56,214 nucleotides of DNA from an uncultured Nocardioidaceae bacterium (GTDB lineage: Bacteria > Actinomycetota > Actinomycetes > Propionibacteriales > Nocardioidaceae). The translations under genes and the position numbers were made by a program. This document shows, piece after piece, positions 5,137 through 27,951 of the stretch. The stretch is taken from the NCBI GenBank assembly GCA_902805845.1, contig CADCUI010000091.1:1-56214 (forward strand). The letters run 5' to 3'. Position 1 is the stretch's first letter. Each line of letters begins with the position of its first letter. Below the pieces are notes generated by a model, which saw only the letters and a program-made list of their open reading frames with translations, was not told the origin of the DNA and made no database searches.

Positions 5137-5253
5137 CCGGATCGTGCGTCACAGGCTGGGCCGCCCCTCCGCGTGCCACCAGCACCTGCACGGATTGATG
5201 CTTTTTGTCCCTGCTCGCACCCGGCGGGACCGATCGGGGCACCCGGGGTGCCC

Positions 5254-9709: not shown

Positions 9710-10108
9710 CTAGCTGGTGCCGATGATGCTGTAGGTCAGGGTGGCGACGCCGATGATGAAGAGCACGATGGTCCCGCCGGCGCCGATGGCGATCCAGCGC
9801 CCCGCCGAGCGGGCGTCCGGGCGATGGTCCCGGATCACGTTCGCCATGCCGGCCATGGCGTGGAGGAGCGCAGATCCGAGGAGGAGTGCGTCCCACACGA
9901 TCCACAGGCCGGACGACCAACGTCTGGTGACGAACGTCGAGCCGGTCTCGGCGACGTCGTTGACGATGTGGGTCAGCCCGTAGTGGCCCAGCGCGAGCAC
10001 CGCGAGCATGACGCCGGTGATCCTGATCGTGAGGTAGACACCGCGTTGTCCCACCCGGCTGAGGCGAGGCGTGGACGTGGCCGGCGTGGCCGACGTGCGC
10101 GTGCTCAT
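9710..10108 (-). CDS. Succinate dehydrogenase/fumarate reductase membrane anchor subunit (SdhD-like)
   Basis: A 132-aa protein with three transmembrane helices (about 35-60, 72-97, 105-130) and histidines suited to haem or quinone binding (LGHYGLTH, LLHAMAGM). Its position directly after the C-subunit gene, overlapping it by 4 nt (ATGA), identifies it as the second anchor. ATG 10108 was chosen because longer frames run into the neighbouring gene. Confidence 0.8.
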   Translation of the reverse strand: MSTRTSATPATSTPRLSRVGQRGVYLTIRITGVMLAVLALGHYGLTHIVNDVAETGSTFVTRRWSSGLWIVWDALLLGSALLHAMAGMANVIRDHRPDARSAGRWIAIGAGGTIVLFIIGVATLTYSIIGTS

Positions 10109-10611
10109 GCCGCCACCACCGGACGCAGGATCACGATGCTGCCGGCCAGCGTCGCGAGCAGGCTCACGACCACGACTACGTTCAGGATCTTCGTCGCGGC
10201 AGCAGAGCCGAGGTCCCAGGCGTCGATCGCGATGAGCCGAAGTCCGTTGAGGGCGTGGAAGAGCAGGGCGAACAACAACCCACATTCGAACAGCCGCATG
10301 ATGACCGTCCCGTACAGGTCGTGGACGTCGTCGTAGATCGACGCAGAGATCGCGAAGAGGGAGACGTCGATGATGTGGAGGGCAAGGAAGGCGAAGATCG
10401 CGATGCCGGTCACCCGGTGGGCGTAGAACGCCAGCCGGTTTGCCTCGGTCCGCTCACTGGGCAGCCGTCCCAGCCTCCACAGCAGGGTCCTCGACCAGAG
10501 GGCGCCACCGTCGACACGCCTCGCCTCGCGGACCACCATGACGACGCTGGCCACGATCGCGACGTTCACCGCGGTGAACGCGGACAGGAAGACGAGCTGG
10601 GCAGTCGTCAC
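10105..10611 (-). CDS. Succinate dehydrogenase cytochrome b556-type subunit (SdhC-like)
   Basis: The 168-aa protein has an N-terminal helix, then RLAFYAHRVTGIAIFAFLA, which matches the HRxTG signature of cytochrome b556 subunits. It continues with LHIID and FHALNGLRLI, a classical haem-ligand/quinone region. Four hydrophobic segments are visible. The GTG start at 10611 lies in a GTGA overlap with the flavoprotein stop. With SdhD it would anchor the complex and pass electrons between succinate/fumarate and the quinone pool. Confidence 0.85.
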   Translation of the reverse strand: MTTAQLVFLSAFTAVNVAIVASVVMVVREARRVDGGALWSRTLLWRLGRLPSERTEANRLAFYAHRVTGIAIFAFLALHIIDVSLFAISASIYDDVHDLYGTVIMRLFECGLLFALLFHALNGLRLIAIDAWDLGSAAATKILNVVVVVSLLATLAGSIVILRPVVAA

Positions 10612-12347
10612 GGCTGCTCCACCTCCGCCTCTTCGGGCGCCGGCCGGGCCGACCGCGAGAACTCCACCGGTCGCTCCGTGATGTCGATCGAGCCGTCGAC
10701 CGTCTGTGTGGCCACGAGGTACTTCAGCCACTCGGAGTCGTCTCGCTCAGGGAAGTCCGACCGCGCGTGGGCGCCGCGGGTCTCCGTGCGGAGTGCCGCG
10801 GTCCGGACGATGATCTTGGCCACCGAGAGCTGGTTCTGGAGGTCGAGCGCCTCGTTCCAAGCGGGGTTGAAGGCGGCCGGTCCCGGCACGGACACCAGCG
10901 CCAGCTGCTCCTCCAACGTGTCGATCTCTCTGATCGCCGCGGCGAGGCCCTCGGCGTTGCGCACCACGCCGCAGTGCTCCCACATCACGTTCTTGAGACG
11001 AGTGGTCAGCTCGAAGGGCAGGATGCCCTCGGGCCGGTCGAGCGGCGCGGCTGCGATCGCCATCGCCCGCTCGACGTCGGCGATGTCGATCTCCGGGTGC
11101 TCCCGGGTCCGCGCCACCACCGCGGCCGTGTCGCCGGCCCGACAGCCGAAGACGGTCGACTCGGCGACGCCGTTGCCCCCGAGACGGTTTGCGCCGTGGA
11201 CACCGCCGGCGTCCTCGCCGGCGACGAGCAGGCCCTCCACGGCCGTGCGGCAGTCGGGGTCGATGATCGCCCCTCCCATGTGGAAGTGCGCGGTGGGGGA
11301 GACCTCGACGGGGCCGGTGGCCAGGTCACTGCCGATCTGTCGGGTCCTGGCCACCATCCCCGGGAAGCGCTTCTCCACCTCGGCAGAGCCCAGGTGGGAG
11401 ATGTCGATCAGCACTCCACCCATGTCGGTGCCGCGTCCTGCCATGATCTCCATGTAGCTCGAGCGGGACACGACGTCCCTAGTCGAGCGCTCCATCCGCA
11501 CCGGGTCGTATTTGGTCATGTAGCGCTCACCGTGCGCGTTGAGAAGGTGAGCGCCGGCGCCACGGAGCCCCTCCTCCAGCACCGCCCCTGTCATCCGGGC
11601 CTTGCCCACCAGCAGGCCGGTGGGGTGGAACTGCATCATCTCCATGTCGCGGACCGCGAGCCCGGCACGCACACACATCGCGACACCGTCGCCCGTCTTC
11701 TCCCGCGAGGGGGCGGCGATCTTGTACATGGTCGCCGCCCCTCCGGTGGCGATGACCACCACCCGGGCCCGCACCACCACGAACTTGCCGTTCTTGATGT
11801 TCAGGCAGGTGAGACCGGCGACCGAACCGTCGGCTGCCCGGATCAGGTCCAGCCCACGCACGTCCTCCAGCTCGCGAGGACGGACGCGGAACATCTGGTC
11901 CCGCAGCCGGGCCATGATCTCGATGCCGGTGAGGTCGCCGCGGTGCACGGTGCGGTCGAACGACTGTCCTGCAAAGGCCTTCTGCTTGATGGTGCCGTCG
12001 TCCGCCCGGTCGAAGAAGCAGCCGACCTTGGTCTCGAGCTCGTGGATCACCTTGGGCGCGTCGTTCACGAGCGTCCAGGCGAGGTCCTGGTTGTTGAGGT
12101 ATTTGCCGCCGTCCAGCGTGTCGTCGAAGTGGTTCGCGATCGAGTCCATCGGGCTGAGCACGGCGTTGTAGCCGCCCTGCACCATCCGCGTGCAGCCCGA
12201 CCGACCGACCGCGCCCTTGCTGATCACGGTGATGTCGAGGTCGGGATCGGCGGCGTGCGCGTGGAGCACGGCCATCAGGCCGGCACCCCCACTGCCGACG
12301 ATCGCGACGTCGGTGAACACCTCGTCGTACGCCGCTGTCGTGGTCAT
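10608..12347 (-). CDS. Succinate dehydrogenase/fumarate reductase flavoprotein subunit
   Basis: Catalytic subunit oxidising succinate (or reducing fumarate). The 579-aa product has the FAD-binding VGSGGAG at 17-23, the substrate motifs HPTG at 241-244, EEGLRGAG near 258, PTAHFHMGG at 351-359, and RLGGNG near 388. Oddly, the histidine that carries covalent FAD in the E. coli enzymes (RSHT…QGG) is not present: the local sequence is GRSGCTRMVQGG, with C52 five residues before Q57. FAD may therefore be non-covalent, as in some fumarate reductases and NadB. ATG 12347 overlaps the stop of the iron-sulfur gene (ATGA). Confidence 0.9.
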   Translation of the reverse strand: MTTTAAYDEVFTDVAIVGSGGAGLMAVLHAHAADPDLDITVISKGAVGRSGCTRMVQGGYNAVLSPMDSIANHFDDTLDGGKYLNNQDLAWTLVNDAPKVIHELETKVGCFFDRADDGTIKQKAFAGQSFDRTVHRGDLTGIEIMARLRDQMFRVRPRELEDVRGLDLIRAADGSVAGLTCLNIKNGKFVVVRARVVVIATGGAATMYKIAAPSREKTGDGVAMCVRAGLAVRDMEMMQFHPTGLLVGKARMTGAVLEEGLRGAGAHLLNAHGERYMTKYDPVRMERSTRDVVSRSSYMEIMAGRGTDMGGVLIDISHLGSAEVEKRFPGMVARTRQIGSDLATGPVEVSPTAHFHMGGAIIDPDCRTAVEGLLVAGEDAGGVHGANRLGGNGVAESTVFGCRAGDTAAVVARTREHPEIDIADVERAMAIAAAPLDRPEGILPFELTTRLKNVMWEHCGVVRNAEGLAAAIREIDTLEEQLALVSVPGPAAFNPAWNEALDLQNQLSVAKIIVRTAALRTETRGAHARSDFPERDDSEWLKYLVATQTVDGSIDITERPVEFSRSARPAPEEAEVEQP

Positions 12348-13054
12348 CGGTCCTCCACCCTCCCGGTGCGGACGCGCCGAATGGCGCGAGCCGGATCCAG
12401 CCCCTTGGGGCACACTCCCGTGCAGCCATAGATGAGGTGGCAGCGATCCGCCCCGTCCTGCCCCGACACGACGTCGAGCCGGGTGCGGCCGGCGGCGTCG
12501 CGGGAGTCGTTGATCAGCACCATGGCCCGCGTGAGGGCAGCCGGTCCGAGGAACGTCTTGTGCTGACCGGAGACGCCGCAGCTGGAGTAGCAGGCGCCGC
12601 ACTGGATGCAGTCGAGCGACGGGTCGATGGCCTCCCGCTCCTCGGAGTCGGGACGTACGACGGCGGGCTCGTCGAGCGACTCCTTCGGGTCGAGGTACGG
12701 GGTGATGCGTGACCACTGCTCCCAGAACGGCGCCATGTCGACGACCAGGTCGCGCACCACCGGGTAGCCGGCCATCGGCGCGATCTCGATCTCGCGGGCG
12801 TGGTCCTGGACCAGGGCCTGGCAGGCGAGGACGGAGCGGCCGTCGACCCGCAGGGTGCAGGTGCCGCACATGGCGACGCGGCACGAGAACCTGAAGCCGA
12901 TGGAGGGGTCGTGCTCACGCTGGACGGCGAGGAGCACGTCGAGGACCGTCATGGCAGGAAAGCGCTCGACCTCGAACCGCTCCTGCGACTCCTCCGCGCT
13001 GCGCTTGATCCGCACCTGCAGCCGCCCTGTCGGTGCACCGGCTTCCTTCGGCAT
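12344..13054 (-). CDS. Succinate dehydrogenase/fumarate reductase iron-sulfur subunit
   Basis: The 236-aa electron-transfer subunit has a plant-ferredoxin-type [2Fe-2S] site (C58, C63, C66, C78). It also has a C-terminal part with CIQCGACYSSC (C149, C152, C155, C159) and CHLIYGCTGVCPKGLDP (C205, C211, C215), the ligands of the [4Fe-4S] and [3Fe-4S] clusters. It is the first gene of the minus-strand operon B-A-C-D-fumA-fumB. GTAGGAG precedes ATG 13054. The regulator dyad lies 12 bp upstream, so the complex is controlled with the sulfonate genes and is probably not the housekeeping complex II. Confidence 0.9.
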   Translation of the reverse strand: MPKEAGAPTGRLQVRIKRSAEESQERFEVERFPAMTVLDVLLAVQREHDPSIGFRFSCRVAMCGTCTLRVDGRSVLACQALVQDHAREIEIAPMAGYPVVRDLVVDMAPFWEQWSRITPYLDPKESLDEPAVVRPDSEEREAIDPSLDCIQCGACYSSCGVSGQHKTFLGPAALTRAMVLINDSRDAAGRTRLDVVSGQDGADRCHLIYGCTGVCPKGLDPARAIRRVRTGRVEDR

Positions 13055-13065: not shown

Positions 13066-13127
13066 GGTAAGAGGTCTGACCAACGTCTGCCGATGCCTGT
13101 TTACCCTGCGCAACGGTGACCCGTCAA
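13066..13127 (-). promoter_or_regulatory. Promoter and regulator operator for the sdh-fum operon
   Basis: On the minus strand: TTGACG (13127-13122), 18-nt spacer, TAAACA (13103-13098), then GGTCAGACCTCTTACC at 13081-13066, just before the ribosome site of the first gene. The 16-mer matches the island-wide dyad. Confidence 0.65.
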
Positions 13128-13144
13128 GAATGCCTCGGGGCTGG

Positions 13145-13215: not shown

Positions 13216-13518
13216 ATGGCCGAGCAAGGCCCTTCTTTCCTCGCGCACAAGTCCGGGGACGCGGTCGCGGTCGCGGTCCGGGACATCAAGCCAGGAAACG
13301 CCGTCGTCGGATATCTCGACGAGACGCCCAGTGTCGACGTGGAGGTGCGCGCAGACGTTCCCCTCGGGCACAAGGTGGCCCTGACCGACACCGCGTCCGG
13401 GGCCGACGTCATCGAGTACGGCGTGCGCACAGCAATCGCAACAGCGGACATCGTCAAGGGTGACTACGTCCACACCCACAACGTGAGGAGCGCACGGTGG
13501 CAGAACAGCGTCGCCTGA
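13216..13518 (+). CDS. suyA: (R)-sulfolactate sulfo-lyase small subunit (SAF domain, UxaA-family N-terminal part)
   Basis: SuyA is the small subunit of the iron-dependent lyase that splits (2R)-3-sulfolactate into pyruvate and sulfite. The 100-aa protein is a single SAF domain: GDAVAVAVRDIKPG, then GHKVAL at 51-56, VIEYG at 65-69, and VHTHN at 85-89 (the metal/substrate-binding histidines). Such free-standing small subunits are typical of SuyAB, whereas altronate and galactarate dehydratases usually carry this domain fused. The assignment is strengthened by SlcC-, ComC-, TauE- and Soe-like neighbours. An altronate dehydratase-type subunit is the main alternative. Confidence 0.78.
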   Translation: MAEQGPSFLAHKSGDAVAVAVRDIKPGNAVVGYLDETPSVDVEVRADVPLGHKVALTDTASGADVIEYGVRTAIATADIVKGDYVHTHNVRSARWQNSVA

Positions 13519-14657
13519 CCGGCTTCCGGCGTCAGAACGGCGCCGTAGGCACGAGGAACCATGTCGCCATCCTGCCGGTTGACGACCTCTCCAACGCGGC
13601 GGCCGAAGGCATCGCCTCGCTGGTCCCCGGCACGTTGGCGCTGCCGCACGCGTTCGGTCGGCTCCAGTTCGGAGAGGACCTGGAGCTCACCTTCCGAACC
13701 CTCATCGGCATCGGCTCGAACCCCAACGTCGCCGCGGTCGTCGTCATCGGCATCGAGCCGAACTGGACGAACAGGATCGTCGAGGGGATCGCGAAGACCG
13801 GCAAGCCGGTGGAGGGCATCTCGATCGAGGGGCGCGGTGACCTGAAGGTCGTCGAGCAGGCTGCTCGCATCGCGCAGGGCTACCTGCAGGAGGCCAGCGA
13901 GCTCCAGCGTGAGCCCGTGGACCGCTCGGAGATCATGCTGACGACCAAGGACGGCGAGTCGGACACGACCACCGGCCTGGGTTCCTGCCGCATCACGGCC
14001 TACCTCAGCGACAAGTGGGTCGAGGCCGGCGGCACGATGATCTTCGGCGAGACCAGCGAGCTGACCGGCGGTGAGCACCTCATCGCCGAGCGCTGCGTCG
14101 ACGACACGGTGCGCAGCCGGTTCCAGGAGTTCTACGACGGCTACATCGAGATGATCGAAGCCACCGGGGCCAACCTGCTCGGTTCGCAGCCGACCCAGGG
14201 GAACATCGCCGGCGGTCTCTCGACGATCGAGGAGAAGGCGATGGGCAACATCGTCAAGACCGGGACGGCACCGATCGTGGGCGCGCTCGCGCCCGCCGAG
14301 GCGCCGACGCGAGCGGGGCTGCACTTCATGGACACCTCCTCGGCCGCGGCTGAGTGCGTCACGCTGATGGCTGCGGCCGGCGGCGTGGTCAACCTCTTCC
14401 CGACCGGGCAGGGCAACGTGATCGGGAACCCGGTCCAGCCGGTCGTGAAGATCACGGCCAACCCCAAGACGGCCGCGTCCATGGCCGACCACATGGACGT
14501 GGACTGCTCGGACATGCTGACGCGTGGCCGGTCCGTCGAGGAAGCCGGTGACGAGCTCATCGACATCGTCGAGCGGACGATCAACGGGCGGCTGACCGCG
14601 GCCGAGTCGCTCGGGCACCGCGAGTTCACGATCACCAAGCTGTACCGAAGCGCATAA
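13497..14657 (+). CDS. suyB: (R)-sulfolactate sulfo-lyase large subunit (UxaA family)
   Basis: Catalytic partner of SuyA, 386 aa. It has the UxaA/GarD-type layout: GxxRxNGxVGxRNH at the start, VVVIGIEPNW near 81-90, GESDTTTG at 153-160, SELTGGEHL at 188-195, FMDTSSAAAE near 278, FPTGQGNVIGNP at 301-312, and HMDVDCSD with C337 as a candidate iron ligand. To my recollection these motifs fit SuyB better than altronate dehydratase. GTG 13497 overlaps the end of suyA by 22 nt, implying a fixed subunit ratio. The products, pyruvate and sulfite, explain the sulfite-handling genes nearby. Confidence 0.8.
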   Translation: MAEQRRLTGFRRQNGAVGTRNHVAILPVDDLSNAAAEGIASLVPGTLALPHAFGRLQFGEDLELTFRTLIGIGSNPNVAAVVVIGIEPNWTNRIVEGIAKTGKPVEGISIEGRGDLKVVEQAARIAQGYLQEASELQREPVDRSEIMLTTKDGESDTTTGLGSCRITAYLSDKWVEAGGTMIFGETSELTGGEHLIAERCVDDTVRSRFQEFYDGYIEMIEATGANLLGSQPTQGNIAGGLSTIEEKAMGNIVKTGTAPIVGALAPAEAPTRAGLHFMDTSSAAAECVTLMAAAGGVVNLFPTGQGNVIGNPVQPVVKITANPKTAASMADHMDVDCSDMLTRGRSVEEAGDELIDIVERTINGRLTAAESLGHREFTITKLYRSA

Positions 14658-14959: not shown

Positions 14960-15718
14960 GTGGCTGATCCCACTCTGCTCGTTCTCGGCGCGCTGGTAGT
15001 CCTCTCGGCCACGTTCCTCGCTGGGGTCGTCGGGTTCGCCTACGGTCTCGTGGCGCTGCCCCTGCTGCTCCTCGTCGGAGTGCCTCTCGTCGACGTCGTC
15101 GTCATCAACCTGGTCATCGGCCTGGCGAGCCGGCTGAGTGTGGTCGCCCGCAGGCATGCGGATGTGACGTGGGCACGGGCTCGGCTGCTCCTGCTGGGCT
15201 GTGTGCCCGGCGTGCTGCTCGGTGTGCTCACGCGGGACCGTCTCGACACCGAGGTGATCCAGCTCGCTGCCGGAGTCGTGACCCTGGTGGCCGTGTCGTT
15301 GATCGCCCGAGGCGGTATCAAGAGCCAGCCACGCAGCTCGACGCCTCCCGTGGTCGTGGTGGCCGGGGGGCTGGGAGGCTTCCTCGGCGCGACCACCAGC
15401 CTCAACGGCGTGCCGCCTGCCCTGCTCCTGACCGGTGACCGGGCGAGTGCGCGCAGCATGGTGGCGGACCTGGCTGTCTACTTCGTCATCGGCAACATCG
15501 TGACGCTGCTGATCCTCTCCCAGTCGGGCCAGGCGCCCTCGAGCTGGGTGTGGTCCGCCCTGGTGCTGTGGGTTCCCGTGGGGCTGGCGGGCAACCTTCT
15601 CGGCGTCGCGCTCGGCCCGAAGATGCCCTACGCCCTGTTCCGGCGGCTCACCATCGCGGTGATCGTGGCCAGCGGGGTCGCCTCCTCGGCACAGGCCGTC
15701 CGCGCCATGCTCGGCTGA
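14960..15718 (+). CDS. TauE/SafE-family membrane transporter, probable sulfite exporter
   Basis: A 252-aa polytopic protein with about eight transmembrane helices in two repeats. The first repeat has ATFLAGVVGFAYGLVALPLLLL, the second GGLGGFLGATTSLNGVPPALLL, the paired glycine-rich half-motifs of the TauE/SafE (COG0730) family. Members next to sulfonate-degradation genes are thought to export sulfite or sulfoacetate. Following suyAB directly, it would relieve sulfite toxicity. GTG 14960 has AAGGGA upstream. The 3' end is convergent with the regulator gene and lies in a 14-bp duplication. Confidence 0.85.
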   Translation: MADPTLLVLGALVVLSATFLAGVVGFAYGLVALPLLLLVGVPLVDVVVINLVIGLASRLSVVARRHADVTWARARLLLLGCVPGVLLGVLTRDRLDTEVIQLAAGVVTLVAVSLIARGGIKSQPRSSTPPVVVVAGGLGGFLGATTSLNGVPPALLLTGDRASARSMVADLAVYFVIGNIVTLLILSQSGQAPSSWVWSALVLWVPVGLAGNLLGVALGPKMPYALFRRLTIAVIVASGVASSAQAVRAMLG

Positions 15719-15741
15719 TCAGTCCGGGCTGATCAGTCCGG
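15714..15741. repeat. 14-bp tandem duplication across two convergent stop codons
   Basis: GCTGATCAGTCCGG occurs twice (15714-15727, 15728-15741). It carries a TGA for the plus-strand transporter gene and a TCA (minus-strand stop) for the regulator gene, each duplicated 14 bp away in another frame. Confidence 0.85.
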
Positions 15742-16509
15742 GCTGGCTGCTTCCCCCGGGGCGATCGTCTCGGCGGCGACCACCTGGATCCGTCGGTTCG
15801 CGGCCTCCCGCGCACTCTTGACGTGGTTGCGTGCTGCTTCCGCCGCTGCTGCGGAGTCGCCCTCGAACAGGGCGTCCAGGATCAGCTGGTGCTCCTGCCG
15901 CGACTGTTCCGCACGGCCCTCGATCGCCAGCGTGGTCTGCATGCCGGTCCTCATCAGCTCGTTCAGCACCCCTTGGGTCTGCTCGAGCAGCCTGTTGCCG
16001 GCAGCCTGCACGATGCGGAGGTGGAACGTCGCATCGAGCTGCTGGAGCAGGTCGTAGTCCCGCGGCTCCTGGGCGAGGGCCTCGCCGAGGGCATGGAAAG
16101 CTGCCTCCACCCCCGCCAGGGCGGCGTCGTCCTTGTTCTGTGCCGCCCACAGGGCTGCCGGCACCTCGAGCACCTCGCGCATCGCGAAGAGCTCCGCGAG
16201 GTTGTGGTCCAGCTTCGCCAGCGACTCCCTCAGGCTTTTCTGCGCGGAGGGTTCCTCGACGAACACCCCCTGGCCGTGCTTGACGACCAGGCGACCTTCG
16301 GCCTGCAGCGAGCGGACCGCCTCACGCAGCGAGGGTCGGCTGACGCGCAGCGTGGCGGCGAGCTCCCGCTCGGACGGGAGCCGGTCGCCGGGGGCAAGCC
16401 GGTGGGAGGACATGTAGCGCAGGATCTCCACACGGATGCGCGAGTTGAGCGTCCCGCCGCCGACCGGCTGCCAGTCCTCGGGAGCCAGCGGTGCTATGTC
16501 AGAAGCCAT
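15733..16509 (-). CDS. FadR-subfamily GntR transcriptional regulator, likely local regulator of the sulfonate island
   Basis: The 258-aa protein has an N-terminal winged helix-turn-helix (about 22-86: RIRVEILRYMSSHRL, PGDRLPSERELA, VSRPSLREAVRSL) and a C-terminal all-helical FCD ligand domain (about 101-240). D159, H163, H207 and H229 fit the metal-binding FCD type that senses small carboxylates. It is the only regulator in the island, and a dyad of the shared type lies 57 bp upstream. It probably represses the pathway until an intermediate binds; which one is unknown. ATG 16509 was chosen because the longer frame has no homologous look. Confidence 0.88.
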   Translation of the reverse strand: MASDIAPLAPEDWQPVGGGTLNSRIRVEILRYMSSHRLAPGDRLPSERELAATLRVSRPSLREAVRSLQAEGRLVVKHGQGVFVEEPSAQKSLRESLAKLDHNLAELFAMREVLEVPAALWAAQNKDDAALAGVEAAFHALGEALAQEPRDYDLLQQLDATFHLRIVQAAGNRLLEQTQGVLNELMRTGMQTTLAIEGRAEQSRQEHQLILDALFEGDSAAAAEAARNHVKSAREAANRRIQVVAAETIAPGEAASPD

Positions 16510-16565: not shown

Positions 16566-16581
16566 GGTCTGAACTCTGACC
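16566..16581. promoter_or_regulatory. Regulator operator in the divergent regulator/lyase intergenic region
   Basis: GGTCTGAACTCTGACC, matching the 6-4-6 dyad with one arm mismatch. It lies between the minus-strand regulator start (16509) and the plus-strand lyase start (16686), so it could serve autoregulation, the lyase, or both. A TATCCT-like -10 for the regulator lies just downstream of it on the minus strand; TAGCGT at 16631-16636 is a possible -10 for the lyase. Confidence 0.6.
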
Positions 16582-16685: not shown

Positions 16686-18203
16686 ATGCCACCCGCGGAG
16701 AACGAGTCGATCTCTCGTCACCGTCTCTCGGCGCCGCCGGGCCCGGTCTACACGCGGACCGTGCTCGAGCCGAGCTTCCGGTTCATGCTCGACCACTACT
16801 TCGAGGCGCTGCTGGAGACCAACCGCGCCTGGGCGCTCATGCTGGGTGACACCGGAATCGTGCCGGGCGAGCACGTGTCCAGGCTGCTCGCGGCGCTGGA
16901 CACGATGGCCTCGGAGGGGGCAGCGGCGTTCGAGGAGTTCAACCCGGCCCACGAGTACTTCTACTCGCACCTGGAGAACCGCCTCTCACAGCTCGCGGGA
17001 CCCGACGCCGCGGGACAGATCAACGTGGCCCGGACGCGGCCCGAGCCGCTGACGCGGATGGCTCTGCGCGTCAAGATCCTGCGGGTCAGCGAGGGGCTGG
17101 CGCAGCTGACCGATCTGCTGCTCGACCTGGCAGAGCGCGAGGCAGACACCGTGATGCCGCAGTGGACGCACATGCAGCCGGCCCAGCCCTCCACCCTCGG
17201 CCACTACGTGCTCGGCATCGTCGACGCGCTGGATCGCGATGCCGGCCGCATCGAGAGCGCCTACCGCACCACGAACGCCTGCACACTGGGCTGCGGAGCG
17301 CTGGCCGGAACGTCCTACCCGATCGACCGGCTTCTCGTCACGGACCTGTTGGGGTTCGACGACGTCAGGGTGAACACCATCGACTGCGTGGCCTCCGGCG
17401 ACTTCGCGCTCGAGACCACCGCGGCCCTGGCCAACCTGGCCACCACTCTCAGCAGGCTGTGCGAGGACCTGTATCTCTGGCACACGGACGAGTTCGCCCT
17501 GGTGGAGATCGGTGACGCGTTCGCCGGCTCGAGCAGCATGATGCCGCAGAAGAAGAACGCCTACCCCTTCGAGTACGTCCGGGCCAGAGCTGCCCACGCG
17601 GTGGGGGACATGGTCGCCGCCTTCGGCGCGCTCCACAACACCAACTTCGGAGACATCAAGGACGTCGAGGAGGAGATGGTGCCGCCCACCCTCCACTCGT
17701 GCGAGGAGGTGACCAACTCCCTGGAGCTGCTCACCGGGACGTTGGGCTCCCTGACGGTTCACCGGGAGCGGATGGCCGACCGGGCCGCGGCCGGCTTCTC
17801 CACGGCGACCGAGCTCGCCGCAGTCCTGCACCGGGAGACCGACCTCGACTTCCGCACCGCGCACCGTGTCGTGGGTCGGCTCGTCGGGCTGGCCGTCCAG
17901 CGGGGCATCCGTCCCCAGGACGTGGGGTCGGAGCTCCTCGACGAGGCTGCCGGCGAGGTCCTCGGGCGGGAGGCCGGGCTCAGTGCCGACCAGGTCCGTC
18001 GTGCCCTGGACCCCCATGGGTTCATCGCGGCACACACCGTGCTGGGAGGACCGGCACCCGAACCGGTGCGCAGCGCGCTCGCCGACGCGAGGGCCAGGGC
18101 GGAACGCCGACGTGAGTGGCACCATGCCGCCACCACGAGGCTGGCGACGGCCTCGGAGGAGCTGCGACGCCGAGCCGACGCGCACCGTGCGGACAGCTCC
18201 TGA
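16686..18203 (+). CDS. Argininosuccinate lyase/fumarase-superfamily lyase, substrate unknown (fumarate-releasing)
   Basis: The superfamily cleaves a C-N or C-O bond in a succinyl group and releases fumarate. The 505-aa protein has the HMQPAQP motif at 162-168 (catalytic histidine region) and the signature loop GSSSMMPQKKN at 281-291 containing the catalytic serine. The argininosuccinate lyase substrate motif GRSRNDQ is replaced by ARTRPEP near 115-121, and NPD after the signature loop by NAYP, so argininosuccinate is unlikely. The C-terminal ~200 residues are ASL-like. A fumarase and a succinate dehydrogenase sit in the same regulon, matching a fumarate product. ATG 16686 follows GGAAAGGGG. 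Confidence 0.8.
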   Translation: MPPAENESISRHRLSAPPGPVYTRTVLEPSFRFMLDHYFEALLETNRAWALMLGDTGIVPGEHVSRLLAALDTMASEGAAAFEEFNPAHEYFYSHLENRLSQLAGPDAAGQINVARTRPEPLTRMALRVKILRVSEGLAQLTDLLLDLAEREADTVMPQWTHMQPAQPSTLGHYVLGIVDALDRDAGRIESAYRTTNACTLGCGALAGTSYPIDRLLVTDLLGFDDVRVNTIDCVASGDFALETTAALANLATTLSRLCEDLYLWHTDEFALVEIGDAFAGSSSMMPQKKNAYPFEYVRARAAHAVGDMVAAFGALHNTNFGDIKDVEEEMVPPTLHSCEEVTNSLELLTGTLGSLTVHRERMADRAAAGFSTATELAAVLHRETDLDFRTAHRVVGRLVGLAVQRGIRPQDVGSELLDEAAGEVLGREAGLSADQVRRALDPHGFIAAHTVLGGPAPEPVRSALADARARAERRREWHHAATTRLATASEELRRRADAHRADSS

Positions 18204-18231: not shown

Positions 18232-18276
18232 TTGCCGCCCCGTGGTGCCCGTGCTTGAATGGCCAGACCTCTTGCC
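18232..18276 (+). promoter_or_regulatory. Promoter and regulator operator for the sulfite-oxidation (soe) operon
   Basis: TTGCCG (18232-18237), 17-nt spacer, TTGAAT (18255-18260), immediately followed by GGCCAGACCTCTTGCC (18261-18276). The layout copies that of the ABC operon promoter (TTGCAG-17-TTGAAT-operator). Confidence 0.65.
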
Positions 18277-18305: not shown

Positions 18306-19823
18306 GTGCAGTACGGATTCGCGATCGACCAGCGCACCTGCATCGGGTGCCACGCCTGCACGGTGGCCTGCAAGACCGAGCACGAGATTCCCGTCGGGCA
18401 GTTCCGCACCTGGGTGAAGTACGTCGAGAAGGGTGAGTTCCCCGCGACGACGCGTGACTTCGGGATCATGCGCTGCAACCACTGCACCGATGCTCCGTGC
18501 GTCAAGATCTGCCCCACGAAGGCGCTCTACAAGCGCGACGACGGGATCGTCGACTTCGACGGCGACCGGTGCATCGGCTGCAAGAGCTGCATGCAGGGCT
18601 GCCCGTACGACGCGATCTACATCGACAAGGACACGAACACCGCAGCGAAGTGCAACTTCTGCGCGCACCGCGTGGACGAGGACATCGAACCCGCATGTGT
18701 CACGGTCTGCCCCACGCACTCGATCTGGGTCGGTGACCTGGACGACCCCACCTCGGGCATCAGCCGGCTGATCAACAGTCACCCGACGTCGGTCCGGTCC
18801 CCGGAGCAGAACACGGGACCCAACGTCTTCTACCTCGGCGCGGACCGCGCGGTCCTCGAGCCCCTCGACGCACCGGTGGATGACACCTACATCTGGTCGA
18901 CGCCGGACAAGCATCGGGCCGAGGTGAGCCGGGACCTGCAGGGCGATGCCGCCACCCAGGCACGCACCACCTACAACACCTCCCACCCGCGGCCATGGGG
19001 TTGGCGGGTGGCCACCTATCTCTGGACCAAGGGCCTCGGCGCCGGAGCCCTGGGGCTGGCGGGGCTCGCCCACATCCTCGGCATCGAGCTGGGTGTGGTC
19101 GGGGACTACGTGGCCCCGGCGCTCGCCCTCTTCGGCGCGGCCACGACGGGCGCGCTGCTCGTCTGGGACCTCAAGCGGCCCGACCGCTTCCTCTACATCT
19201 TCACGAAGTCGAACTGGACGTCGTGGATCGTGCTCGGCGCCTACGTGCTCGCCGCCTTCTCGGGTGGCACCGTGCTCTGGCTCCTCGCCGCGATCTTCGA
19301 CATCGGCTGGATGACGTCCGTGCTCGCCTGGCTGGCGCTGCCCGCCAGCGCGATGATGGCCGGATACACCGGGTTCCTCTTCGGGCAGGCCGAGGGACGC
19401 GACCTGTGGCAGTCGCCGTTGCTGTTCTGGCACCTGCTGGTCCAGGCCGTCATGGTGGGTGCAGGAGCCCTGGCCGTGGCACTGCCGTTCGTGGACATCG
19501 GCCAGGACGGCGAGCAGCTCGTCGTGCGTGCGCTGGTCGTGGCCAGCATCGGGCACGTCCTGATGCTGGTCCTCGAGTACCAGGGGCGGCACGTCACCCG
19601 CGGGGCCGCGGCGGCGGCGCACATGGTGACCCACGGGCGTTACGCCACGACGTTCTGGGCGGTGGCAGTGGGAGGGGCGGCTGCGGCTGCTGCACTGGCG
19701 GGCTTCGCGTGGTCGGGCGACTATCTGCTGCCGGCGCTGGTCGCCGGTCTGCTCGCCCAGGTCGCCCTGGTCGTCTACGAGAGCATCTTTGTCCGAGCCG
19801 GCCAGGACGTGCCACTGTCATGA
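18306..19823 (+). CDS. Fused iron-sulfur (SoeB-like) and NrfD/PsrC-type membrane (SoeC-like) subunit of a sulfite-oxidising molybdoenzyme
   Basis: A 505-aa two-part protein. Residues 1-140 carry four [4Fe-4S] sites: C12/15/18/22, C57/60/65/69, C89/92/95/99 and C116/119/131/135. From about 232 to the end come roughly eight transmembrane helices of NrfD type, starting PWGWRVATYLWTKG. It would pass electrons from the molybdenum subunit to quinone. In Allochromatium SoeABC the two parts are separate genes; here they are one polypeptide. GTG 18306 has GAAGGGAAG upstream. A TTG at 18255 in frame is the promoter -10 and is rejected. Polysulfide- or thiosulfate-reductase-like roles are alternatives. 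Confidence 0.8.
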   Translation: MQYGFAIDQRTCIGCHACTVACKTEHEIPVGQFRTWVKYVEKGEFPATTRDFGIMRCNHCTDAPCVKICPTKALYKRDDGIVDFDGDRCIGCKSCMQGCPYDAIYIDKDTNTAAKCNFCAHRVDEDIEPACVTVCPTHSIWVGDLDDPTSGISRLINSHPTSVRSPEQNTGPNVFYLGADRAVLEPLDAPVDDTYIWSTPDKHRAEVSRDLQGDAATQARTTYNTSHPRPWGWRVATYLWTKGLGAGALGLAGLAHILGIELGVVGDYVAPALALFGAATTGALLVWDLKRPDRFLYIFTKSNWTSWIVLGAYVLAAFSGGTVLWLLAAIFDIGWMTSVLAWLALPASAMMAGYTGFLFGQAEGRDLWQSPLLFWHLLVQAVMVGAGALAVALPFVDIGQDGEQLVVRALVVASIGHVLMLVLEYQGRHVTRGAAAAAHMVTHGRYATTFWAVAVGGAAAAAALAGFAWSGDYLLPALVAGLLAQVALVVYESIFVRAGQDVPLS

Positions 19824-19834: not shown

Positions 19835-22756
19835 ATGACGACCGGGAGCACCACCCCCCACCACGACGCGACCGACGTTCAGGCCGCGCCTCCACAGGCC
19901 CGGCCGGAAGCCGTTCCGGGTGCTCAGCCGGCGTTGCCGGGCGCCCGCAACCACGAGAACCTGCGGAACTTCCCCCCGCCGGACCAGTGGGACTCCTTCG
20001 TCCAGTACGAAGCGAAAGCGCATCCACGCAAGGTGCCCCGCGAGTTCATGCTCATCCCCACGACGTGCTTCAACTGCGAGTCGGCCTGCGGCCTCCTGGC
20101 GTACGTCGACAAGGAGACGCTCTCGATCCGCAAGCTGGAGGGAAACCCAGCCCACCCCGGCTCCCGAGGCAGGAACTGTGCCAAGGGGCCGGCCACGATC
20201 AACCAGGTCACCGACCCGGAGCGGATCCTGCACCCGCTGAAGCGGGTCGGGAAGCGAGGAGCGGGGGAGTGGAAGCAGGTCAGCTGGGACGAAGCTCTGG
20301 ACGACATCGCGGGACGCATCCGCACCGCCATCGTCGAGGGTCGCAACAACGAGGTCATGTACCACGTCGGTCGTCCCGGTGAGGACGGCTTCGCCGAGCG
20401 GTTCCTGGCTGCCTGGGGGGTCGACGGGCACAACAGCCACACGAACATCTGCTCGTCGGGTGCGAGGCTCGGCCAGTCGCTGTGGGGCGGCTTCGACAGG
20501 CCCTCACCCGACTACGCGAACGCCAAGGTGATCCTGCTCCTGTCGAGCCACCTGGAGACCGGTCACTACTTCAACCCGCACGCCCAGCGGATCATGGAGG
20601 GCAAGCTCGACGGCGCCAAGCTCATCGTGGTCGACCCTCGCATGTCCAACACCGCCTCCCACGCCAACCTGTGGGTGGCACCGTGGCCGGGGAGCGAGGC
20701 AGCGATCCTGCTGGCCATCGCCTCCTACCTGCTGCGCACCCGACAGATCGACTCGGGGTACCTCGAGCGCTGGTTCAACTGGGAGACCTACCTGGACAAC
20801 CTCCACCCGGAGGCGCCGCGCACCTTCTCCAGCTTCCTGGACCTGTTGACGACGGACTACGAGAGGTACACGTTCGAGTTCGCCGCCCAGGAGGCGCAGA
20901 TCCCGGTCGAGCGGATCGAGGAGATGGCTCGGATCGTCGCGCAGTGCGACGGCCGGCTGTCGGCCCACATCTGGCGGTCCGCCGCGGCCGGCAACTACGG
21001 CGGGTGGGCGGTTGCCCGCGCCCTGTGGTTCGTGCTGGCGTTGACCGGCAGCATCGGCACCAAGGGCGGGACGAGCCCCAACGGGTGGGACAAGTTCATC
21101 CCGCACGGTCCGAACATGCCCCAGGCCCACGAGTCCTGGAACCATCTCACCTGGCCGGCTGAGTACCCGCTGTCCACGAACGAGATGTCGATCCTGCTGC
21201 CGCACTTCCTCAAGGACGGACGCGGGAAGCTGGATGTGTACTTCAGCCGCGTCTACAACCCCATCTGGACGAACCCCGACGGGTTCAGCTGGCTGGAGTC
21301 CCTCACCGACGAGTCCGCCGTGGGGCTGCACGTCTCCTTGACGCCGACGTGGAGCGAGACCGCGGAGTTCGCGGACTACGTCCTGCCGATGGGGCACTCG
21401 GTGGAGCGCCACGACACCCACTCGTACGAGACCCATGCGGCCAAGTGGCTGGGGTTCCGCCAGCCGGTGCAGCGGGTGGCGATGGAGAAGCTCGGGATGC
21501 CGGTAGGTGACACCCGCGACTCCAACCCGGGAGAGGTCTGGGAGGAGAACGAGTACTGGTTCGAGCTGTCCTGGCGCATCGACCCCGACGGGTCGCTCGG
21601 CATCCGTCAGTACTTCGAGTCGCCGTACCGCGCAGGCGAGAAGATCACCGTCGACGAGTACTACCGGTGGATCTTCGAGAACCAGGTGCCAGGGCTCCCT
21701 GAGAAGGCGGCCGCGCTCGGGTTGACGCCCCTCGAGTACATGCGCAAGTTCGGAGTCGTGGAGGTCGCCAAGGACCTCTACCGGCTCGACGAGCGCCCGC
21801 TGACCGAGGCCGAGCTCGAAGGAGCCGTCGCCGACGACCACGGAGTCCTGCGCAAGCCGACCACCCTGGAGTCGGTCCCGCCCCTGGTGGGCGAGGCCGG
21901 GGCGGTCGGCGTCGTGCACGCCGACGGCACCAAGACGTTCGGGTGGCTCTCCCCCTCCCGCAAGCTCGAGGTCTACAGCCCTGCGATGCGGGACTGGGGC
22001 TGGCCCGAGTACGCGACCCCTCAGTACATCGAGTCGCACGTGAGCCGGCGGAAGGTGGACGGCGACAACGGTGAGTTCGTGCTCGTGCCGACCTTCCGGT
22101 TGCCGACGCTGATCCACACCCGTTCTGGCAATGCCAAGTACCTCAACGAGATCAGCAACACGCACCCCTTGTGGGTGAACGCAAAGGACGCTGAGCGGCT
22201 CGGGTTCCGCACCGGTGACCTCGTGCGCGTGTCGACCAGGATCGGCCACTTCGTCGTCAAGGTCTGGGCGACCGAAGGCATCCGTCCGGGCGTCATCGCG
22301 CTCTCCCACCACATGGGGCGGTGGCGGTTGCGCGACGGCGAGGGAAGCCGCTGGGTGACCGGGCTGGTCGACCTCGATCGGGATTCCGAGGGGATCTGGA
22401 CGATGCGCCAGCGCGGGGGTGTGACCGCCTTCACCTCCGACGACCCCGACAGCGAGAGGATCTCCTGGGACGACCCGGGCGTGCACCAGAACCTGACGTT
22501 CCCCGTGCAGCCCGACCCCTGGTCGGGCATGCACTGCTGGCTGCAGAAGGTGAAGCTCGAGGCGGCGCATCCCGGTGACCGTTACGCCGACGTGGTGGTC
22601 GACACCCGCAAGTCGCGCGAGGTCTATCGTGAGTGGTTGGCGATGACCAGGCCGACGGTGGGACCTGGTGGACAGCGACGTCCGGAGTTCCTGATGCGGC
22701 CCATCAAGCCCAAGCGCAAGGCGTTCCGAGTCCCTGCAGAGGATGGACGGTCGTGA
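19835..22756 (+). CDS. Molybdopterin oxidoreductase large subunit, SoeA-like (probable cytoplasmic sulfite dehydrogenase)
   Basis: The 973-aa protein binds molybdopterin guanine dinucleotide and one [4Fe-4S] cluster (C78, C81, C85, C115 in CFNCESAC…NCAKG). HTNICSSGARLG around C206 offers a cysteine ligand to Mo, as in the PsrA/PhsA/SoeA group. The first 40 residues are hydrophilic and lack a twin-arginine signal, so the active site should face the cytoplasm, as described for SoeA. That suits sulfite made inside the cell by SuyAB. The C-terminal ~200 residues form the dinucleotide-binding domain. The ribosome site AAGGAG precedes ATG 19835, 11 nt after the fused subunit. Confidence 0.83.
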   Translation: MTTGSTTPHHDATDVQAAPPQARPEAVPGAQPALPGARNHENLRNFPPPDQWDSFVQYEAKAHPRKVPREFMLIPTTCFNCESACGLLAYVDKETLSIRKLEGNPAHPGSRGRNCAKGPATINQVTDPERILHPLKRVGKRGAGEWKQVSWDEALDDIAGRIRTAIVEGRNNEVMYHVGRPGEDGFAERFLAAWGVDGHNSHTNICSSGARLGQSLWGGFDRPSPDYANAKVILLLSSHLETGHYFNPHAQRIMEGKLDGAKLIVVDPRMSNTASHANLWVAPWPGSEAAILLAIASYLLRTRQIDSGYLERWFNWETYLDNLHPEAPRTFSSFLDLLTTDYERYTFEFAAQEAQIPVERIEEMARIVAQCDGRLSAHIWRSAAAGNYGGWAVARALWFVLALTGSIGTKGGTSPNGWDKFIPHGPNMPQAHESWNHLTWPAEYPLSTNEMSILLPHFLKDGRGKLDVYFSRVYNPIWTNPDGFSWLESLTDESAVGLHVSLTPTWSETAEFADYVLPMGHSVERHDTHSYETHAAKWLGFRQPVQRVAMEKLGMPVGDTRDSNPGEVWEENEYWFELSWRIDPDGSLGIRQYFESPYRAGEKITVDEYYRWIFENQVPGLPEKAAALGLTPLEYMRKFGVVEVAKDLYRLDERPLTEAELEGAVADDHGVLRKPTTLESVPPLVGEAGAVGVVHADGTKTFGWLSPSRKLEVYSPAMRDWGWPEYATPQYIESHVSRRKVDGDNGEFVLVPTFRLPTLIHTRSGNAKYLNEISNTHPLWVNAKDAERLGFRTGDLVRVSTRIGHFVVKVWATEGIRPGVIALSHHMGRWRLRDGEGSRWVTGLVDLDRDSEGIWTMRQRGGVTAFTSDDPDSERISWDDPGVHQNLTFPVQPDPWSGMHCWLQKVKLEAAHPGDRYADVVVDTRKSREVYREWLAMTRPTVGPGGQRRPEFLMRPIKPKRKAFRVPAEDGRS

Positions 22757-23874
22757 GCCTCCTGCGCCGCTCCTCGTCGCCTCGCGTCGACCTCGAGGCG
22801 GTCCGCGCGGCAGTGGCGAGGGTGGAGGACCCGGAGATCCACCGCCCGCTCGGGGAGCTCGGCATGCTCGGTGCGGTGGACGTCGACCGGGAGGGCAGGG
22901 TGAGGGTCGAGGTACGTCTCACGACTCCTTCCTGTCCGCTCAAGGAGACGTTCCGGGACCAGGTCACCTCAGCGGTCCACAGCGTTGCGCCTTCGGTGCC
23001 GGTGGGCATCGCCTTCGGCGCTCTCGACGACCGCGCCCGCCGGGACCTCGCGATGACCCTCCGAGGTCCTGACACCGGTGGCGTCCCCGTCGTGGCTCCG
23101 AGGATCTACGCGGTGGCCAGTGGGAAGGGCGGCGTCGGCAAGTCGTCGATCACGGCGAACCTGGCGGTGTCGCTCGCCGGCCAGGGACTGTCCGTGGGGC
23201 TGCTGGACGCCGACGTCTGGGGCTACTCCGTGCCGCAGCTCTTCGGCACCCGGCGCGCCCCCGTGGCGCTCAACGGACTGATGTTCCCGGTCGAGGCACA
23301 TGGCGTGCGGCTGATGAGCACCGGCTTCCTGGTCGCCGACGACGAGCCGGTCATCTGGCGCGGACCGATGCTGCACAAGGCTCTGGAACAGTTCCTCGGC
23401 GACGTTCACTGGGGCGAGCTGGACGTGCTCCTGATGGACCTGCCGCCGGGCACTGGAGACATCACGCTCTCCCTGCTGGAGCTCGTCCCGTCGGCGGCCC
23501 TGCTGGCGGTGACGACGCCACAGCAGGCGGCGCGAAGCGTGGCGAGTCGCGTCGGCCGGATGGCGCTGGACGCCCGGATGCCCGTGGCCGGTGTCGTCGA
23601 GAACATGTCGACGGCGACCTGCCAGGCCTGCGGCCACGGGACACCGCTGTTCGGCGAGGGCGGCGGCGCGCGGCTTGCGGACGAGCTGGGCGTCTCCCTG
23701 CTGGCCCAGGTGCCGTTGGACCTCGCGATGCGGGAGGCCGGGGACGCCGGCGTGCCGGTGGTACGCCGGGACCCGACCGCGGCATCCTCCCTCGTCCTCG
23801 GCTCGCTGGCAGCCAGCCTCCCGACCGTACGGCGGAGCATGGTCGGCGTGCCCCTACCGCTCAGCGTCGCCTGA
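22753..23874 (+). CDS. Mrp/NBP35-family P-loop ATPase with N-terminal MIP18 domain (Fe-S cluster carrier)
   Basis: Mrp/ApbC proteins hold and pass Fe-S clusters. The 373-aa product has an N-terminal MIP18/DUF59 domain (about 13-95, with C61 in PSCPLKET) and a deviant Walker A SGKGGVGKSS at 123-132. It also has DLPPGTGD near 229-236 and the C-x-x-C pair C290/C293 (TATCQACGHGTPLFG) for the bridging cluster. The GTG start overlaps the stop of the SoeA-like gene (GTGA). Tight coupling suggests delivery of clusters to the five-cluster Soe complex, and perhaps to the fumarase and SuyAB. Confidence 0.88.
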   Translation: MSLLRRSSSPRVDLEAVRAAVARVEDPEIHRPLGELGMLGAVDVDREGRVRVEVRLTTPSCPLKETFRDQVTSAVHSVAPSVPVGIAFGALDDRARRDLAMTLRGPDTGGVPVVAPRIYAVASGKGGVGKSSITANLAVSLAGQGLSVGLLDADVWGYSVPQLFGTRRAPVALNGLMFPVEAHGVRLMSTGFLVADDEPVIWRGPMLHKALEQFLGDVHWGELDVLLMDLPPGTGDITLSLLELVPSAALLAVTTPQQAARSVASRVGRMALDARMPVAGVVENMSTATCQACGHGTPLFGEGGGARLADELGVSLLAQVPLDLAMREAGDAGVPVVRRDPTAASSLVLGSLAASLPTVRRSMVGVPLPLSVA

Positions 23875-24224: not shown

Positions 24225-24279
24225 GCTGAGCCCCGAGCTCACCGGCGGGACCGGGCGGTGAGACACCGCCGAGCTCAGC
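24225..24279. terminator. Bidirectional terminator between the soe and slcC operons
   Basis: Nested inverted repeats between convergent operons: outer GCTGAG (24225-24230)/CTCAGC (24274-24279) and inner GGCGGTG (24254-24260)/CACCGCC (24264-24270) with a 3-nt loop. No T-tract. Confidence 0.6.
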
Positions 24280-25795
24280 CCTCCTCCTCCTCCATCAGGT
24301 GGACCGTCGTCGTGTCGCCGAGCACGCGGGTGAGGATCTTGGCCATGTGGGGTCGCGCCTCGCGGACCTCGATCGTGACCCCTGAGGTCTCGGCCTCCTC
24401 GACGAGGTCGCGCAGCATCAACGCGCCCGTCAGGTCCACCCGGCCGAGTCCGCTGAGGTGGATGACCACGCGCGACAGCGCGGGCTGCTCGGATATCAGC
24501 TGGTTGACCGCCCTCTCCATCCCGGGCGCGGAGCCGAAGTACAGCACGCCGGAGGGCCAGAGGTGGAGCGTGTCGCCCTCTGCTGTGGACGGGACACTGA
24601 GCTGGACCTCGCGCCAGAGGTGCACCGCGAGCGCCATGCCCACGCCGAGGAGGACGGCCCGGTCGATCCGGGGTGCGAGGAGGAGGGTGGCGACGACCGT
24701 GACGGCGCCGACGCTGAACTGGAGCGGCGACCAGCGCCAGAGCCGCACCGGGGTGAGGAAGTCGACGAGCGTGACGGCCGCCGCGATCACGATGCCCGCG
24801 AGCACGGCCTTGGGCAGTGGCGCCAGCGCGCTCGTGAAGGGCAGCATGGCGACGAGGATCAGCCCCGTGCAGGCGCCGCTCCAGCGCGTGCGTGCCCCGG
24901 CGAGCCGGTTGAGGGCGGACCGGGAGAACGACCCGCCGACGGGGTAGCCGCCGGCGAAGCCGGCGGCCACGTTCGCCAGTCCCTGACCGATGAACTCCTT
25001 GTTGGAGTCCCAGGGCCGCCGTTCCTCGGCGGCGTACCGACGGGCGATCGAGGCCGGTTCGGCGAACCCGACGAGCGCGATGACGACCGCCGGAAGCAGC
25101 AGCGATCCCAGGTCCCTCAGCGGCAGGTCGGTCTCCACGGCCAGCCGGACCGGGACGTCCCCCACCACGCTTCCGGAGTAGTCGACGTAGGCGCTCCACA
25201 CGGTGGCGCCCACGACCGCCAGGAGCGCTCCGGGGAAGAAGGGGGACAACCGTCGCCCACCCAGCATGGCGACGAGGGCCAGCGCTCCCAACGTCAGGTC
25301 CACCAGGGACCAGGCTGTCGGGTCGCGAAGGGCGCCGAAGGCGGTGACGAGCGGGTTGGAGCCCTCGACGTCCACCCCGACGAGGGTGGGGATCTGGGAG
25401 GCCACGATGAGAACGGCCGCGGCCGAGGTGAAGCTCGTCACCACCGGTTGCGACATGAGGTAGGCGATCGGTCCGCCTCCACCGAGCCCGACGGCGAGGC
25501 GGACGACGCCCACGGTGACGGCCAGGAGCGCTGCGAGCAGGGCCAACCTCGTCGTGTAGGGGTCGGCGACGGTGGCAAGGGCTCCGAAGGTCAGCAGGCT
25601 GGTCACTGCCGTCGGCCCGGTCTGGAGGTACGGCGAGGACCCGACGAGTGCGCCGCCGATCGCACCCGCAGACGCCGCGTAGAGGCCGTGCACCGGGTCC
25701 AGGCCGGCGATCTCCGCGTAGGCCATCGCCTGGGGGATCGCCACGAGTGCGACGCTGAAACCGGCGACGAGGTCTCCGCGGACTGGCTTCAGCAC
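24275..25795 (-). CDS. SulP-family anion transporter with C-terminal STAS domain
   Basis: The 506-aa protein has the SulP N-terminal pattern ALVAIPQAMAYAEIAGLDPVHGLYAA, roughly 12-14 transmembrane segments to about residue 395, and a STAS domain from about 405 (VVIHLSGLGRVDLTGALMLRDLVEEAE near 460-485). SulP members carry sulfate, bicarbonate or dicarboxylates. It is third in an operon behind slcC and comC, so it should move a pathway anion: sulfate out, or a sulfonate in. GTG 25795 is the first start after the ComC stop, with a 43-nt gap. Direction and ligand cannot be read from sequence. Confidence 0.85.
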   Translation of the reverse strand: MLKPVRGDLVAGFSVALVAIPQAMAYAEIAGLDPVHGLYAASAGAIGGALVGSSPYLQTGPTAVTSLLTFGALATVADPYTTRLALLAALLAVTVGVVRLAVGLGGGGPIAYLMSQPVVTSFTSAAAVLIVASQIPTLVGVDVEGSNPLVTAFGALRDPTAWSLVDLTLGALALVAMLGGRRLSPFFPGALLAVVGATVWSAYVDYSGSVVGDVPVRLAVETDLPLRDLGSLLLPAVVIALVGFAEPASIARRYAAEERRPWDSNKEFIGQGLANVAAGFAGGYPVGGSFSRSALNRLAGARTRWSGACTGLILVAMLPFTSALAPLPKAVLAGIVIAAAVTLVDFLTPVRLWRWSPLQFSVGAVTVVATLLLAPRIDRAVLLGVGMALAVHLWREVQLSVPSTAEGDTLHLWPSGVLYFGSAPGMERAVNQLISEQPALSRVVIHLSGLGRVDLTGALMLRDLVEEAETSGVTIEVREARPHMAKILTRVLGDTTTVHLMEEEEG

Positions 25796-27901: not shown

Positions 27902-27951
27902 GGTCAGACCTCTGTCCTGCCGACTCTAGGCCCGACGCTGCTGCACTGCAA
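27902..27951 (-). promoter_or_regulatory. Promoter and regulator operator for slcC-comC-sulP
   Basis: On the minus strand: TTGCAG (27951-27946), 17-nt spacer, TAGAGT (27928-27923), then the dyad, read on the plus strand as GGTCAGACCTCTGTCC at 27902-27917, five bases beyond the -10 box. Confidence 0.66.

Follow-up and report, generated by a model that had tools for sequence, protein, structure and literature searches.

An actinobacterial sulfonate island encodes a candidate cofactor-free sulfoacrylate hydratase of argininosuccinate lyase fold

Background

An uncultured Nocardioidaceae bacterium (assembly GCA_902805845.1, contig CADCUI010000091.1; the whole stretch analysed, 56,214 nucleotides, is called the window below) encodes, among genes for sulfonate use, a relative of argininosuccinate lyase (ASL) whose substrate motif has been replaced. 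What would such an enzyme act on? The original prediction was the release of fumarate from a sulfonated succinate, with the fumarate consumed by the fumarase and succinate dehydrogenase (SDH) homologues encoded nearby. We propose instead, with confidence somewhat above an even chance, that the lyase is a cofactor-free sulfoacrylate hydratase (“sulfo-fumarase”) built on the ASL fold.

In its accessible text, PMC11489063 describes 3-sulfopropanoate as a sulfosugar fermentation product that Bilophila uses as electron acceptor, and states that its degradation by bacteria had not been reported before. The same text cites a thesis on homotaurine in Roseovarius nubinhibens for a route from 3-sulfopropanoate via sulfoacrylate to sulfolactate, which is the route proposed here, but names, in that accessible part, no genes or enzymes for these steps. 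Our literature search, conducted mostly without subscription papers, found no paper on this hydratase.

Results and discussion

The lyase gene runs on the plus strand from an ATG at 16686 to a stop at 18203 and encodes 505 amino acids; an alternative GTG lies upstream at 16491, and the ATG is backed by the aligned N-termini of 10 orthologues (ISRERL; ISRHRL in the window). Matches to Lyase_1 (2e-37) and ASL_C2 (2.6e-13) are far beyond chance, and a GSSxMPxKxN-type signature together with a helical fold places the protein in the aspartase/fumarase superfamily, in which a flexible-loop serine and the MPQKKN loop stabilise an aci-carboxylate. The catalytic motifs GSSSMMPQKKN (residues 281-291) and HMQPAQP (162-168) are intact, as had been predicted. 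The substrate motif is ARTRPEP (115-121) where ASLs have ARSRNDQ; the predicted replacement of SRNDQ was found in 11/11 orthologues, but the arginine of the motif itself (R118) is kept, with Thr in place of Ser, Pro of Asn, Glu of Asp and Pro of Gln around it.

The lyase is distinct from the arginine-biosynthetic enzyme of its host, as the original prediction had it. It passes the argH model TIGR00838 (331.8 bits against a cut-off of 279.5), while the host’s own ArgH, which carries SRNDQ, scores 562.9 bits and adjoins ArgG (330.5 bits) on contig 35; a true ArgH was rejected for the lyase because of this separate pair. No arginine genes were found in the lyase cluster. On the FumC model TIGR00979 the lyase reaches only 20.2 bits (cut-off 664.75), which sets this member of the ASL branch apart from class II fumarase, although the chemistry proposed for it, cofactor-free hydration of an unsaturated diacid in trans, is the same.

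The replaced motif is rare among relatives. Among 81 ASL-like proteins (the best 80 loci of a scan of genome contigs, in which further orthologues are possibly missing, plus the host ArgH), 78 had SRND, two RTRPEP and one RTLPPP. RTRPEP is invariant in all 11 lyase orthologues, the window included, which come from Actinobacteria, Salinisphaera and two haloarchaea. Besides that of the window, no orthologue was found among 293 sampled genomes of the order (E 1e-100) or 394 of the class (E 1e-80), and in the lyase tree the window groups with lyases of Pseudonocardiaceae (support 99/98).

Three further ASL-like genes were noted elsewhere: i) a Sedimentisphaerales MAG (L015, 272-12358) encodes a lyase with RTLPPP (35% identity), with a ComA-family gene, a FumA-like gene (51% identical to that of the window), a PF03601 protein and an MmgE/PrpD protein within ~10 kb and URO-D proteins on both sides, and this lyase is possibly another sulfonate-handling ASL branch; ii) Tamaricihabitans (L014) has a second ASL-like gene (16-1023; G648:C19:15336-16643; 36% identity) ~9 kb from its lyase; iii) a Geminicoccaceae plasmid (L162, 8974-10488) carries an ‘argH’ with SRND (38-41% identity) within an operon that also encodes an ABC transporter and CoA transferases, and this gene is probably a further non-arginine ASL.

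With ArgH the lyase has in common the fold, the Lyase_1 and ASL_C2 domains and residues T161-H162, S283, K289, N291 and R118. On the other hand, 11/11 orthologues depart from ASL at six positions (window numbering): N119P, D120E, Q121P, D293Y, Y323D and Q328E. The 11 aligned ArgH proteins, five of them scored against the argH model, have SRNDQ in 11/11 and show the ASL residue at all six positions, with the exception of Asp293, which is present in 10/11. Asp293, Tyr323 and Gln328 presumably form the leaving-group side of the ASL active site, and the functions assigned here to other single residues of ASL and SDH are likewise presumed. A pocket that has lost the amine-side residues but kept the catalytic ones would fit a small sulfonate substrate plus water. 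The same changes disfavour N- or O-succinyl conjugates of cysteate or sulfolactate, which had been suggested as substrates. They also count, together with the host’s ArgG-ArgH pair and the FumC score, against the idea that the whole module handles ordinary succinate, fumarate and malate, with the lyase acting either as a C4 fumarase or as a paralogous ASL; this reading, which draws on the argH score above the cut-off, appears improbable to us.

Two relatives with other leaving groups are informative. EDDS lyase of Chelativorans (PDB 6g3d, 6rx8) is the best PDB match by sequence (~222 bits, 31% identity) and superposes well (Z about 40-41), a likeness that favours fumarate release, but it retains both SRND and the Asp that follows its MPQKKNP loop, each absent from the lyase family in the alignment, and it releases an amine. 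The AlphaFold model of the lyase (pLDDT 91.3, pTM 0.90) matched ASL and EDDS lyase at Z about 40-43, which demonstrates the fold and not the function: the structural modelling that had been suggested thus bore out the common fold but did not separate ASL from EDDS lyase as the nearer relative.

The second is XcbC, which belongs to coenzyme M (CoM) biosynthesis in Xanthobacter autotrophicus Py2 and is reported, in the accessible text of PMC8727900, to form sulfoacrylate by eliminating phosphate. The Xanthobacter protein, confirmed on the XcbC model (742 bits), belongs to the ASL superfamily, likewise has no SRND, and shows R118, R119, E120 and Y293 at the lyase positions; Glu120 and Tyr293 are common to both and not found in ArgH, but the two proteins are only 28% identical and XcbC has Tyr in place of His162. 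One might suppose from this, and from XcbC (NF052535, 265.8 bits) being the second-best NCBIfam model, that the lyase makes sulfoacrylate from phosphosulfolactate. However, the cut-off is 575 bits, and since SRND proteins reach 204-255 bits on the same model the rank says little; XcbC identity was rejected on these scores. No ComA-like gene was found among the window genes scanned, and we regard such a reaction as very improbable.

The lyase lies in an island between a tRNA-Ala(GGC) at its left edge (5064..5138, +) and a 402-aa open reading frame at its right end (28586-29794), which had no Pfam or NCBIfam match. In 4/4 congeneric genomes the tRNA-Ala and the genes on either side were found with no sulfonate genes between them (tblastn, E 1e-8), so the island is an insertion beside this tRNA gene; a search of the island (5139-29794) for a tRNA-type attachment repeat gave none, and the window genes scanned there included no integrase.

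On the left, a sulfonate-type ABC transporter is encoded by genes for an ATPase (5352..6179, +), a permease resembling SaoP, TauC and SsuC below the cut-offs of those models (6188..7042, +) and an SsuA-like substrate-binding protein (7095..8093, +; 109 bits, cut-off 163.5). The two-subunit fumarase homologue and the SDH-like complex of the original prediction are both real: on the minus strand follow the class I fumarase-type beta (FumB-like, 8201..8806) and alpha (FumA-like, 8796..9698) subunits, the second proposed sulfoacrylate hydratase (8201-9698), and then, at 9710-13054, a putative SdhD-like anchor (9710..10009; no Pfam match, 71% identical in RHA1), an SdhC-like anchor (10105..10611; PF01127), an SdhA-like flavoprotein, the proposed 3-sulfopropanoate dehydrogenase (10608..12347), and an SdhB-like iron-sulfur subunit (12344..13054).

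Divergently, on the plus strand, lie SuyA-like (SAF domain, 13216..13518) and SuyB-like (GD_AH domains, 13497..14657) subunits of a sulfolactate sulfo-lyase and a member of the TauE/SafE sulfite exporter family (14960..15718), and next a GntR/FCD regulator (15733..16413, -; PF07729, PF00392; start uncertain, maybe 16665) divergent from the lyase. Downstream of the lyase are a 4Fe-4S and NrfD fusion resembling SoeB-SoeC (18306..19823, +), an SoeA-like molybdopterin oxidoreductase for which sulfite oxidation is predicted (19835..22756, +) and an Mrp/NUBPL-type Fe-S carrier (22753..23874, +), followed on the minus strand by a SulP family transporter (24275..25795), an Ldh_2 family protein similar to the ComC/SlcD sulfolactate dehydrogenases (25839..26861; NF040650 177.5 bits, cut-off 500) and an SlcC-like D-2-hydroxyacid dehydrogenase (26858..27859). 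The labels SlcC, ComC, SuyAB and SoeABC are those that we presume to go with these family matches.

That these genes form a sulfonate regulon, as had been predicted, is supported by an operator-like 16-mer, GNNCAGACCTCTNNCC, which we had first spotted by eye. It is exact before the ABC unit (5285..5300, +), in the sdh/suy intergenic region (13066..13081, -), before soeBC (18261..18276, +) and before slcC (27902..27917, +); a second sdh/suy intergenic site (13183-13198) has one mismatch, and a degenerate site between gntR and the lyase (16566..16581, +) has two. An 8-mer common to five and a 9-mer common to four of seven upstream stretches each arose in 1/1000 simulations, the seven stretches having been chosen by hand with the pattern already noticed. 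No site was found in the tauE and sulP upstream stretches. Across the whole window a relaxed pattern gave six matches, not above chance (19/100 shuffles as high), matches at up to two mismatches numbered 12 (31/100 shuffles as high) and occur within genes too, and a generic GntR half-site pattern gave four matches against 4.41 expected. The case for an operator in the window rests only on the four exact sites and their promoter positions. In relatives, all six Pseudonocardiaceae loci have a site with at most two mismatches 13-65 bases upstream of the lyase start; in the same scan of bacterial loci, the lyases of L147 and L016 had no such site nearby.

Do the fumarase and SDH homologues consume fumarate, as had been supposed? 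Elsewhere in the host genome, contig 20 encodes a housekeeping SdhA (979.4 bits on TIGR01811) and contig 66 a FumC-type fumarase (556.8 bits, below the cut-off of 664.75); an L-aspartate oxidase is present as well. Island homologues burning fumarate would duplicate the housekeeping enzymes, and the steps that the cluster encodes downstream of sulfolactate point to another role. The SdhA-like protein misses the cut-offs of both SDH models (TIGR01816, 383.1 against 727.35; TIGR01812, 459 against 567.3). It preserves the SDH catalytic residues, which suits an ordinary C4 module, but 29/29 members of its subfamily have Glu at residue 258, a position that is Thr or Ser in four controls and, by alignment, Thr in the SdhA of 1nek. 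In the substrate loop EEG replaces (T/S)E(G/S/A) in 29/29, and this is a possible marker for 3-sulfopropanoate dehydrogenases. Glu258, the housekeeping enzymes and the exchange of genes described next all speak against fumarate as the compound consumed.

The lyase and the class I fumarase homologue are largely mutually exclusive. Of 29 SDH-like loci, 10 had only the lyase, 18 only the class I fumarase and one, the window, both; none had neither. Inclusion required an SdhA-like protein at least 48% identical to that of the window, on stretches of 4.6 to 31.7 kb. Besides the window, the set comprised L014 and L016, L147, L139-L146 from the class to which the Salinisphaera genome belongs, L156-L160 from the family of the Tamaricihabitans genome, and 12 of the 17 plasmid records within this identity range (H44, H45, H49, H52 and H55 being left out). 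Without the three loci that had entered through the lyase (window, L014 and L016), eight lyase-only and 18 fumarase-only loci remain, with none having both or neither. Two more distant loci, L148 (4.8 kb) and L149, drawn from 25 matches at 37-42% identity and outside the subfamily, show neither gene.

The exchange is visible gene by gene: Salinisphaera L016 and the gammaproteobacterial L139, L140 and L145 have suyAB, ABC, sdhBA, slcC and ldh2 in common, and the hydratase slot holds the lyase in the former and fumAB in the latter. It also extends to whole genomes, as a lyase orthologue was found in 3/3 lyase-type genomes (E 3.8e-159 or better) and in 0/8 fumarase-type genomes, where the best match (4.6e-72) and identities of at most 39% are in the ArgH range; there was none in 10 plasmid records either, a search covering plasmids only. 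Moreover, on two haloarchaeal plasmids the lyase adjoins sdhAB and genes for TauE and SuyAB-like proteins, and neither plasmid gave a FumA-like match. In the SDH tree, the starred branches require at least two lyase/fumarase changes, and the window pairs (100/98) with Rhodococcus jostii RHA1, which is of fumarase type only, within a starred set of nine containing eight lyase-type rows. The window may be an intermediate that gained fumAB while keeping the lyase. The RHA1 locus itself (L010, pRHL1, 2804-19125) has TauE, SDH-like and fumAB genes 69-86% identical to those of the window, a SuyA match with no SuyB match nearby, and an integrase-core (transposase-type) gene.

Fumarate release by the lyase, from sulfosuccinate with sulfite leaving or from the succinyl conjugates, leaves this swap unexplained. 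It can point to the co-encoded SDH and fumarase homologues, but SDH-like and fumAB genes without the lyase occur beside TauE or sulfate-exporter genes, and a sulfite-eliminating role was rejected because SuyAB-like proteins are already encoded alongside. We consider it improbable, much like the ordinary C4 module. Proteobacterial plasmid clusters of the SDH-like subfamily adjoin TauE or sulfate-exporter genes, that of the NT-25 plasmid additionally with a GabD-type aldehyde dehydrogenase; two other plasmid clusters have no TauE among the adjoining genes listed.

The neighbours of the two hydratase candidates differ. Among lyase-only loci SuyB was found in 9/10 (the tenth, L157, ends at a contig end), ldh2 in 9/10 and slcC in 8/10, and sulfolactate is therefore the likely product. 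Among fumarase-only loci, only 4/18 had a SuyB match (L094, L139, L140 and L145) and 5/18 had slcC and ldh2. Since the sulfolactate end was not seen at most fumarase-type loci, the two hydratases may act in different pathways in some cases, and the SuyB count lowered our confidence in the hydratase and in the mirror pathway described below. For an ordinary C4 module the counts cut both ways: the scarcity of SuyB at fumAB-type loci favours it, but the presence of SuyB beside the lyase in nearly all lyase-only loci does not. Loci L011-L013, L095-L099, L141-L144 and L146 are fumAB-type with SDH-like genes and no SuyB match; their class I fumarase is more distant, with FumA, where listed, ~33-36% identical to that of the window.

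Reading from gene content, swap pattern, conserved substitutions and fold, all taken from sequence, we propose the substrate, direction, stereochemistry and every reaction of the following arc. The SDH-like membrane complex, whose substrate we infer to be 3-sulfopropanoate, would oxidise it to 3-sulfoacrylate, a counterpart of fumarate that bears a sulfonate group; the lyase would add water to give 3-sulfolactate, by the anti addition/elimination chemistry of its superfamily; SlcC-like and ComC/SlcD-like dehydrogenases would adjust the enantiomer; SuyAB-like proteins would cleave sulfolactate to pyruvate and sulfite; and an SoeABC-like enzyme with TauE/SulP-type transporters would dispose of the sulfur. 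The cluster looks like a mirror, made with sulfonates, of the succinate-fumarate-malate sequence. Elsewhere the same hydration would fall to the two-subunit class I fumarase homologue, of a family that is Fe-S dependent and unrelated to the lyase, although it takes the same position beside the SDH-like genes and is proposed to catalyse the same reaction; only in the window do the two co-occur (n=29 loci). Fumarate itself offers a precedent for two unrelated hydratases, FumA and FumC. As the window encodes the fumarase homologue too, the lyase there is maybe redundant or otherwise employed, and the strain may use the two for different enantiomers.

An alternative is that the lyase makes sulfoacrylate by eliminating ammonia from cysteate, as a sulfo-aspartase, or from an N-substituted cysteate, and that the fumarase hydrates it. 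The superfamily performs amine eliminations, and cysteate is to sulfonates what aspartate is to carboxylates. The window has its separate fumarase homologue, and most lyase-type genomes keep one elsewhere: class I fumarase (PF05681) was found on other contigs of 6/6 lyase-type Pseudonocardiaceae genomes and of G955, with Salinisphaera the sole case of none among the eight lyase-only genomes searched. Such enzymes might hydrate sulfoacrylate. However, lyase-only clusters would then be without a dedicated hydratase for the SDH product, and Asp293, present in 10/11 ArgH and in EDDS lyase, is Tyr in 11/11 orthologues. We hold this alternative to be unlikely and retain sulfoacrylate hydration as the preferred role of the lyase.

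Conclusions

Bacteria and haloarchaea may run an arc from 3-sulfopropanoate through sulfoacrylate to sulfolactate with two unrelated forms of hydratase, an Fe-S class I enzyme and a cofactor-free enzyme of ASL fold, with the window as if caught in mid-replacement; for this wider picture we see the chances as evenly balanced. Our literature search met the pathway only as a thesis citation, and the superfamily variant proposed for it would be new. If the assignments are right, they provide candidate genes with which Actinobacteria, Proteobacteria and haloarchaea would convert 3-sulfopropanoate to pyruvate and sulfite, RTRPEP would be a marker that separates some argH-annotated genes from arginine biosynthesis, and a new reaction of the superfamily becomes directly testable in vitro.
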